From a virus: 24,475 nt of DNA. The notes beneath the pieces were generated by a model, which saw only the letters and a program-made list of their open reading frames with translations, was not told where the DNA came from and ran no database searches. Location of the stretch: positions 1 through 24,475 of the IMG/VR virus record IMGVR_UViG_3300046413_000887; one strand, written 5' to 3'. A program made the translations under genes and the position numbers. This document shows positions 21,175 to 24,455 of this stretch, one piece after another (position 1 is the stretch's first letter; every line of letters starts with the position of its first letter).

Positions 21175-21767
21175 ATTAAAGGGGCGTATAAAGGATTACC
21201 GCATGACCAACAGTTAAAGTGTTCGTCTTCAATTTCTTGGATCACTTTGCGTGATGCACGAACTTTAAATCCGCAACACTCACACTCGATTTTAATCATG
21301 CGAGTAGTTTGCTTTTTATCCTGCTTAGTCAAATCGATGCGAGCATGAGGATAGTCACCGTATCGCTTTACATACTTTGCAAGTGCATCGTAAAGAGGTG
21401 TACCTTCCTTTGCAGTGCACTGGGTAGGTTTGCCCTCAAGCCCAACTGCACGAGCAATTTTAACAAAGTCTTTACCGTGACCAGATTCGCAATCGTCAAT
21501 CGCATGGCATAACTCGTGCACCAAAGTTGCTAAAACTAGAATTGAGTCATCAATGGTTGGTGACACAAATACCTCATTAACTTTTGCAACACTGCAAGCC
21601 CTTGAGTAGCACTGACCAATTGTACGCTTTTTACTAGCAAACGCTTTTCTGCTTGGCAAAGAGCATGACACTCTAACATCAGCAGGAACGGTTTGACCGT
21701 TTTTCGTGAATAATGATTTGGACAACCTTTCTGTTGCCTTGCGTAAGTATGTTTCTCTGTCGTTCAT
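21171..21767 (-). CDS. SprT-like zinc metallopeptidase (198 aa)
   Basis: Start at ATG 21767, immediately downstream of a conserved promoter. The longer in-frame start at 21803 is in the promoter and is not supported. H84-E85-L-C-H88 (VHELCHAI) is the zinc-binding motif, with H97 (ESGHGKDF) as third ligand as in SprT/Spartan-type peptidases. The C-terminus has a zinc ribbon: C162, C164/C165 and C186-W-S-C189. Spartan-family proteases cleave DNA-protein crosslinks, and SprT-like proteins occur in phages, but substrate is unknown here. The N-terminal half (1-70) is basic. It leads the run of genes that includes the portal module. Confidence 0.85.
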   Translation of the reverse strand: MNDRETYLRKATERLSKSLFTKNGQTVPADVRVSCSLPSRKAFASKKRTIGQCYSRACSVAKVNEVFVSPTIDDSILVLATLVHELCHAIDDCESGHGKDFVKIARAVGLEGKPTQCTAKEGTPLYDALAKYVKRYGDYPHARIDLTKQDKKQTTRMIKIECECCGFKVRASRKVIQEIEDEHFNCWSCGNPLYAPLI

Positions 21768-21774
21768 GATTAAG

Positions 21775-21833
21775 ACAATAATATTAATTATTATATAAAG
21801 CAAGCACTAAATAAAAATATCCTGTGTCATAAA
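21775..21833 (-). promoter_or_regulatory. Promoter copy A, before the SprT-like gene
   Basis: Minus-strand reading: TTGCTT (21798-21803), 17 bp spacer, TATTGT (21775-21780), then 7 bp CTTAATC and the ATG at 21767. An upstream TTTATGACACA element (21823-21833) overlaps the TGA stop of the upstream gene. The AT-rich run between element and -35 could be an UP-like element. Three copies with the same layout occur in the window. Confidence 0.65.
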
Positions 21834-22069
21834 GTTGCGATGTCTTTTATACCTCTGATTTCCTTTAGGTATTTGATTTGTATCACCAAATCTCCGCTAA
21901 GAATATTAATTGCTTCCAATTGTTTTAGGGTATCACCCTTTCCAGATTGGCATTTATTTGCCAATTTCTGGATGGTCTTCTTAGCATTAAATATTCTTTC
22001 CTTAGTTTCAGAAAATTCTTCATCACCTTTCCACTCCCAGAGTGCCTTTGCGTTTTCTTTATTCATCAT
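21827..22069 (-). CDS. Small helical hypothetical protein (80 aa)
   Basis: ATG at 22069, overlapping the end of the previous gene by 11 nt (a second ATG lies one codon on). Predicted helical and charged: KEETKERIFNAKKTIQKLA-like segment, then KQLEAINILSGDLVIQIKYL. It ends in the upstream element of promoter A. Function unknown. Confidence 0.65.
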   Translation of the reverse strand: MMNKENAKALWEWKGDEEFSETKERIFNAKKTIQKLANKCQSGKGDTLKQLEAINILSGDLVIQIKYLKEIRGIKDIATL

Positions 22070-23166: not shown

Positions 23167-23427
23167 TTAGTTGATGTAGCAGGTCAATTCGTACCTGCCG
23201 GATGATAGACGATAGATAACCACACAAGCATACTTTCTGGTGTGCCTGTCCTTAATGGTATCGACCTTAAAGTTCCAACGCTCAGTGGTCTCATATGTGA
23301 CACCTCTCCAAGTTTCGTCATCGAACTCAGATGACTTAGCATCGTTGAGACGAAGTAGGTTAATGCGGACATCTGCAATGCAATCTGCGAGAGTGTCGTG
23401 GTAAGATGATGTGCGGTTCTTGATCAT
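23167..23427 (-). CDS. Hypothetical protein under promoter C (86 aa)
   Basis: ATG at 23427 (MIKNRTSSYHDTLADCIADV); the in-frame ATG at 23463 lies in the promoter. Predicted alpha/beta: ADCIADVRINLLRLND, then ERWNFKVDTIKDRHTRKY and VVIYRLSSGRYELTCYIN. No family recognised. Its ATG is exactly 7 bp from the -10 hexamer of promoter C. Confidence 0.7.
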   Translation of the reverse strand: MIKNRTSSYHDTLADCIADVRINLLRLNDAKSSEFDDETWRGVTYETTERWNFKVDTIKDRHTRKYACVVIYRLSSGRYELTCYIN

Positions 23428-23434
23428 GTTTAAT

Positions 23435-23482
23435 ACAATAAATTTATTTATTTGAAATAGCAAGTGGTAGTTGTGTCATAAA
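23435..23482 (-). promoter_or_regulatory. Promoter copy C, before the 86-residue gene
   Basis: Minus-strand reading: TTGCTA (23458-23463), 17 bp, TATTGT (23435-23440), 7 bp ATTAAAC, ATG at 23427. The upstream TTTATGACACA element (23472-23482) lies 8 bp upstream of the -35 and overlaps the TGA stop of the preceding gene. Confidence 0.65.
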
Positions 23483-23959: not shown

Positions 23960-24247
23960 TTAGTCTGATATATGGTATAGTGATACGAATGGTTTTGGGT
24001 CTTTTGCAGTACCGTACAACTTGTTTAAACGGTCTGCCTCGGCATCTGCCTTTTCACCGTCCAGATCAAATGATCCGCAGAATGCCTTAAAGTAATACTT
24101 AGGATAAGAGTAATACCTGCCGTAGTGCGTGTGACCTCCAAAAAGTTTATCAGCACCGTGATGCCATCCCTCGCCCTTTTTGGCTTTATTGAAAGGGGTT
24201 ACCCTATCGCATAAATATTGAATAAAATAAAAATCAAATGTGTTCAT
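23960..24247 (-). CDS. Hypothetical protein (95 aa)
   Basis: ATG at 24247 (MNTFDFYFIQYLCDRVTPF), at promoter B. Tyr/His/Gly-rich middle (GWHHGADKLFGGHTHYGRYY, residues about 27-46), then a charged helix (DLDGEKADAEADRLNKLYG). The His cluster might bind metal, but no known motif is matched. Confidence 0.7.
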   Translation of the reverse strand: MNTFDFYFIQYLCDRVTPFNKAKKGEGWHHGADKLFGGHTHYGRYYSYPKYYFKAFCGSFDLDGEKADAEADRLNKLYGTAKDPKPFVSLYHISD

Positions 24248-24254
24248 AATTAAG

Positions 24255-24312
24255 ACAATAATTTATATTAGTATGTAATGCAAGTATAAAATAAAAATTC
24301 TTGTGTCATAAA
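24255..24312 (-). promoter_or_regulatory. Promoter copy B, before the 95-residue gene
   Basis: Minus-strand reading: TTGCAT (24278-24283), 17 bp, TATTGT (24255-24260), 7 bp CTTAATT, ATG at 24247. The upstream TTTATGACACA element (24302-24312) is here in intergenic sequence, not over a stop codon, and abuts the iteron-like inverted repeat. Confidence 0.65.
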
Positions 24313-24432
24313 TTACACTTTTACACTTTTTACACTTATTTTGGACTTACTATATAAAATATTAGCCTATATTCACCCTTTTACCTTTTTGTATTAACTA
24401 AAAAAAAAAGCGTAAAAAGTGTAAAAGTGTAA
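24313..24432. repeat. 21-bp perfect inverted repeat of TTACACTTT iterons around an AT-rich core
   Basis: Left arm 24313-24333 and right arm 24412-24432 are exact reverse complements; the arm begins TTACACTTTTACACTTTTTA on the plus strand. Each arm contains two to three tandem ACACTTTT units. The 78-bp core is AT-rich and contains TATATAAAATATTA and a run of ten A. Candidate origin, replication-protein or repressor binding region; it is the only long non-coding stretch in the window (24248-24475). Confidence 0.65.
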
Positions 24433-24434
24433 AA

Positions 24435-24455
24435 TGTACAACTTCTTGTACAACT
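24435..24455. repeat. Two direct copies of TGTACAACT, 12 bp apart
   Basis: Copies at 24435-24443 and 24447-24455, each containing the palindrome TGTACA. The spacing is close to one helical turn, as expected for a protein-binding pair on one DNA face. Function not determined. Confidence 0.45.

Follow-up and report, generated by a model that had tools for sequence, protein, structure and literature searches.

A long inverted repeat at the terL junction of an uncultivated temperate phage is a lineage-specific, replaceable spacer beside a conserved predicted promoter

The window analysed here is the whole 24,475-base sequence of an IMG/VR virus record, a fragment of a temperate phage in which all main genes are oriented on the minus strand. 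It ends inside the terL gene, which is 548 aa long in overlapping contigs and matches Pfam Terminase_6N and the PHROG terminase large subunit. The whole gene is present in overlapping contigs L004 and L006, with its C-terminus, ...LSTGGGY*, at the junction studied here. Genes for integrase (int), Erf, O-like and DnaC-like proteins are found in contigs overlapping the window. In L006, the region upstream of terL comprises an integrase, an Erf-like protein, an O-like protein, an IstB/DnaC-like ATPase and small genes, the O-like label being based on gene position and internal repeats, with no family match. An array of 8-bp ACACAAAC-like units was also observed there, at the start of an HTH gene (L006:5252-5308), in the window lineage only. 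Reference phages gave no DNA match to the window and only distant TerL relatives, and no Rfam family was found in it.

The start of the integrase gene overlaps the 3' end of a tRNA-Cys in eight contigs (L006:11305-12510, minus strand, and seven others), and this overlap is the likely attP. With the likely attP located there, a role of the inverted repeat described below as recombination or integrase attachment site, raised in an earlier note on this DNA, was not supported. In the genome collection, one contig matched the tRNA-Cys sequence, at its very end; this contig belongs to an uncultured Opitutales MAG, so the phage host is probably a member of Opitutales. No prophage was found in a TerL profile search of genome contigs, nor in an integrase search of 42 genomes of the likely host family, which returned a few weak matches besides short N-terminal ones, the latter probably to the tRNA-Cys end.

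The inverted repeat lies in a non-coding gap (24248-24453) between two minus-strand genes (Table 1). The earlier description of perfect 21-bp arms flanking 78 bp of AT-rich core that includes a ten-A run was confirmed in all parts and positions. The arms are composed of TACACTT units in 8- and 9-bp steps, are perfectly complementary and can be extended to 30 bp at 93%. Even when 3 mismatches are allowed, the window contains no further copy of the arm sequence. When the window was remodelled 25 times with a second-order Markov model, the longest arm was 16 bp (usually 10-12 bp), and shuffling the local AT-rich gap 2000 times gave 15 bp at most; arms of 21 bp are thus well beyond chance. The fold of the repeat reaches -41.5 kcal/mol (z -4.5 against dinucleotide shuffles). 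Three near-identical contigs that extend past the window end carry the repeat, one of them beginning within its core. All four known copies are near-identical, with 9 or 10 A in the A run, and represent no independent conservation.

Table 1. Features at the terL junction and related sites in the window.
Feature	Coordinates	Strand	Basis or remarks
Third upstream-site copy TTTATGACACAGG; its TGA is the stop of gene 21827-22069	21821..21833	-	
Second upstream-site copy TTTATGACACAAC; its TGA is the preceding gene's stop; -35 at 23463, ATG at 23427	23470..23482	-	
First accessory gene, 95 aa, MNTFDFY..., starts at 24247	23960..24247	-	ORF list, module search
-10-like TATTGT, 17 bp after -35, 7 nt before ATG	24255..24260	-	sequence
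-35-like TTGCAT, 27 bp downstream of TATGACAC start	24278..24283	-	module search
Upstream site TTTATGACACAAG, abutting repeat	24300..24312	-	one of 50 non-redundant fixed-geometry promoter modules
Left arm of perfect 21-bp inverted repeat, TACACTT units	24313..24333	+	repeat search, shuffles
AT-rich core	24334..24411	.	imperfect arm extensions 24334-24342 / 24403-24411; ten-A run 24400-24409
Right arm of perfect 21-bp inverted repeat	24412..24432	+	repeat search
Small hairpin TGTACAA-GAAG-TTGTACA, 7-bp stem, 4-nt loop, directly after terL	24435..24452	-	sequence, fold
terL 3' end, stop codon 24456-24454, cut by contig end	24454..24475	-	overlapping contigs L004/L006

The repeat had been described as adjoining a promoter, and the comparison bears this out: the conserved element at the locus is the predicted promoter that abuts the repeat, not the repeat itself. 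The site TTTATGACACARG precedes a TTGCWT -35 hexamer in 50 non-redundant promoters, many of which are interrelated and do not amount to 50 independent events. The distance from the TATGACAC start to the TTG is 17 bp in 9 promoters and 25-28 bp in 29, while in 12 the site is inverted at 21-22 bp. About one helical turn separates the two direct spacings, with the inverted spacing half a turn between them. In all 50, the ATG, often in the form ATGAACAAY, follows 34-36 nt after the -35 start, within a search window that allowed 32-39 nt. Three copies of the module are present in the window, at 24310, 23480 and 21831 (modules 24247-24312, 23427-23482 and 21767-21833). The third has its -35 at 21803 and the ATG of a SprT-like gene, named from a database match, at 21767. 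At 21803 and 23463, the TTG codons that the ORF list gives as starts belong to -35 hexamers. In the window copy the ATG lies 7 nt past the end of the -10-like hexamer, so the mRNA of the first accessory gene is probably leaderless, as far as the sequence can tell. Divergent transcription, which the earlier note had considered in view of a plus-strand promoter pair, was not supported, as the promoter scan did not report this pair and no plus-strand gene follows.

In Class I activator-dependent promoters, such as CRP-dependent ones, the activator site is located upstream of the -35. Positions of the upstream site one helical turn apart are a feature common to these promoters and the phage module, but the phage site is also used inverted with a 5-bp shift, and the likeness is a candidate one only.

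The 13-mer site is present 11 times in 42 genomes from the family to which the Opitutales MAG belongs, the same number as its reversed control. Six of the matches were examined in full and represent one homologous locus, to which two more (G051 and G052) map. A locus-based search revealed its presence in 18 genomes (L139-L156, e.g. L145:1500-1832, plus strand, and L146:1361-1693, minus strand). At 17 host-family loci TATGACA[CT] is positioned exactly 17 bp before TTG, and phage and host sites have sequence and this one spacing (17 bp) in common. Downstream of the host site follows a conserved structured leader with 33 predicted pairs, 8 of them with changes on both sides. Its similarity to the SAM-I/IV riboswitch is sub-threshold (about 30 bits, gathering 41.1), and it is possibly an undescribed riboswitch variant. 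In the loci examined, the leader is followed by an ORF that encodes about 80 aa and has the motif NNNGTWWxHYTVYPTP. The common site suggests that one host protein may bind both phage and host sites.

The terL stop codon on one side of the repeat and a block of variable accessory genes on the other agree with the earlier proposal that it marks the start of a gene block. The earlier note had also named absence of the repeats from close relatives with the same gene order as evidence against its readings, and such absence was found in close relatives whose gene order is similar. Four relatives with 97% identical TerL (L010, L011, L013 and L014) have another spacer without the repeat, while retaining TTGTACAAGAAGTTGTACA after terL and TTTATGACACAAGA before the next gene. 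The small hairpin after terL is kept in these four and in L025, and with one G-T wobble also in L012, where an extra gene is inserted behind terL and the hairpin stays at the operon end, after the extra gene. More distant relatives show arrays with units of 10-11 bp (for example L017, L023, L024, L028, L029, L033, L076, L094 and L100), several of them significant against shuffles, or other hairpins at the terL junction. Only 5-8 bp, effectively no spacer, are left at the junction in L015, L026, L078 and L088. Differences occur even between L026 and L028, whose terL genes are 98.8% identical: the former has no array and the latter a 164-bp spacer. L022 carries the array of L032 inverted (alignment score 27, shuffle maximum 13), and an array with an inverted counterpart recurs in L028 and L100. 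In six large contigs, non-coding short-period arrays were detected solely at the terL junction (G002 and G004). As a separate observation, a second partial copy of the terL 3' end lies just after terL in L021, a sign of recombination at the junction.

Because relatives carry a different spacer, other arrays or none, the repeat is a lineage-specific, dispensable and rapidly replaced spacer. Its assignment to an operon boundary rests on a comparison of spacers. At the terL junction their median is close to 137 bp, an approximate value as the group labelled terL in this comparison includes three other long genes, whereas between accessory genes the upstream site usually shares bases, in a fixed register, with the stop codon that ends the preceding gene.

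Several other identities were considered for the repeat and rejected. A MITE-like mobile element does not fit a single copy in the window and relatives that show a replaced spacer, not an empty site. A packaging (pac) array at the terL junction was considered because the units in the arrays of several relatives recur at close to one helical turn, but some phages have no array. For an intrinsic terminator, the scan reported no site, the stem is AT-rich and the loop is long. The arms are not extra copies of the conserved upstream site, having no weight-matrix match to it.

The earlier note had further listed an origin of replication as possible, and short repeats arranged as inverted arms on either side of AT-rich DNA do resemble one. 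The lambda origin is laid out as iterons and an AT-rich tract within gene O (PMC7466680). Short repeats adjoining AT-rich DNA are shared by the window's repeat and lambda-type origins, but the phage group of the window has its origin-like region within the O-like gene and the repeat is located elsewhere. Eight of the nine O-like genes compared contain repeated words mid-gene followed by an AT-rich tract, as in lambda; in that of L031 no 8-mer is present at three copies. The words vary between phages and are mostly palindromes or occur in both orientations (GTGGTATCAC, TAGTACTA, GTGACAGC, TGGCCCCA, GTGAGGTC, ACCAAATC and GAGATATCTC in L006:8141-8806, minus strand, and its homologues in G001-G005, G008 and L029). 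The repeat is several kb away from the O-like gene, and its units are not the iterons of that gene. Moreover, the repeat is missing from G001 (L010) and G005 (L025) despite their related O and DnaC genes (DnaC about 91% identical). In the unrelated phages L108 and L111, similar ACACTTTT-type arrays, partly in both orientations, adjoin genes judged from their sequence to be replication helicase-like (L108:7736-7759 and L111:7871-7894), and in L108 similar units run on into the 3' end of the helicase-like gene. These arrays would fit an origin, or an origin-derived remnant of another replicon, yet with origin-like iterons inside the O-like gene and the repeat missing from relatives whose O and DnaC genes are closely related, the repeat is probably not the replication origin, and either form of this explanation is very improbable.

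The best-supported statement on the repeat is that it is an exchangeable spacer at an operon boundary, filled in a lineage-specific manner between terL and the promoter of the accessory operon, both on the minus strand. If it works at all, it would most likely do so as a weak hairpin insulator, a reading to which we assign a probability of about 0.5. Behind the small hairpin at the terL 3' end, the long AT-rich hairpin would weaken read-through from terL into the accessory operon. Sequence-specific regulation would take place beside the repeat, at TTTATGACACAAG, perhaps bound by a host regulator, before the sigma-70-like promoter of a putatively leaderless gene. The spacer-and-insulator reading is supported by the location between the terL stop and the accessory gene, the spacer lengths at the junction, the strong fold (z -4.5), the small hairpin that stays at the operon end in L012 despite the extra gene, and the relatives whose TerL is 97% identical, in which both flanking motifs are retained around a differing spacer. 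Against it stand the lack of a terminator-like site in the scan and a hairpin loop that is long for an intrinsic terminator. Selection at the RNA level is not indicated, because the spacers of 25 relatives fold no better in sense than in antisense (mean z -1.6 and -1.7), and insulation cannot be essential, because four relatives have no spacer.

Weak insulation is the likeliest action, at about even odds against a binding array or no function. As an operator array, the TACACTT units would cooperatively bind a putative phage regulator beside the accessory promoter. Short units in 8-9 bp steps directly upstream of a promoter, the significant 10-11 bp unit arrays at the same place in several relatives, and the inverted array in L022, which suits DNA binding, are consistent with this. 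However, units differ completely among lineages while the promoter is unchanged, some relatives lack an array (L026 compared with L028), and the arm units do not match the adjoining conserved regulatory site. The analysis gave no positive evidence for the repressor operator array of the earlier note, and we regard a binding array as unlikely. The repeat could also have arisen incidentally, through slippage and inversion of repeats at a junction that tolerates such changes. Presence/absence and copy-number differences among close relatives, unit sequences unrelated between lineages and the gain of the 8-bp array at the HTH gene in the window lineage speak for such an origin without function, but the restriction of detected non-coding arrays to the terL junction in the six large contigs, and the recurrence of an array with its inverted counterpart, suggest more than drift, and we consider absence of function fairly unlikely.

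The exchangeable-spacer reading can be compared with known phage arrangements. Like phage operon-boundary hairpins, the repeat lies behind the final codon of an operon and ahead of a same-strand promoter, and it folds strongly; unlike them, it is AT-rich, has a very long loop and no terminator in the scan, and is replaced in close relatives. The accessory block resembles phage moron loci, in which accessory genes with their own promoters are set among late genes, in its variable genes between terL and portal with their own promoters, but here many genes use a single stereotyped promoter type and have the upstream site in common, and terminators are putative at most. Tentatively, the many putatively leaderless promoter copies, whose upstream site matches that of one conserved host promoter, may drive the accessory genes as a set that one host regulator would switch, with the spacer isolating this regulon from the late genes.

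Recognition of the repeat as a replaceable spacer removes a tempting false replication origin. A fixed promoter code marks accessory genes in these uncultivated, probably Opitutales, phages and aids the correction of start codons. With a regulatory site common to the phage and its likely hosts, accessory gene expression of the phage may follow a host signal.
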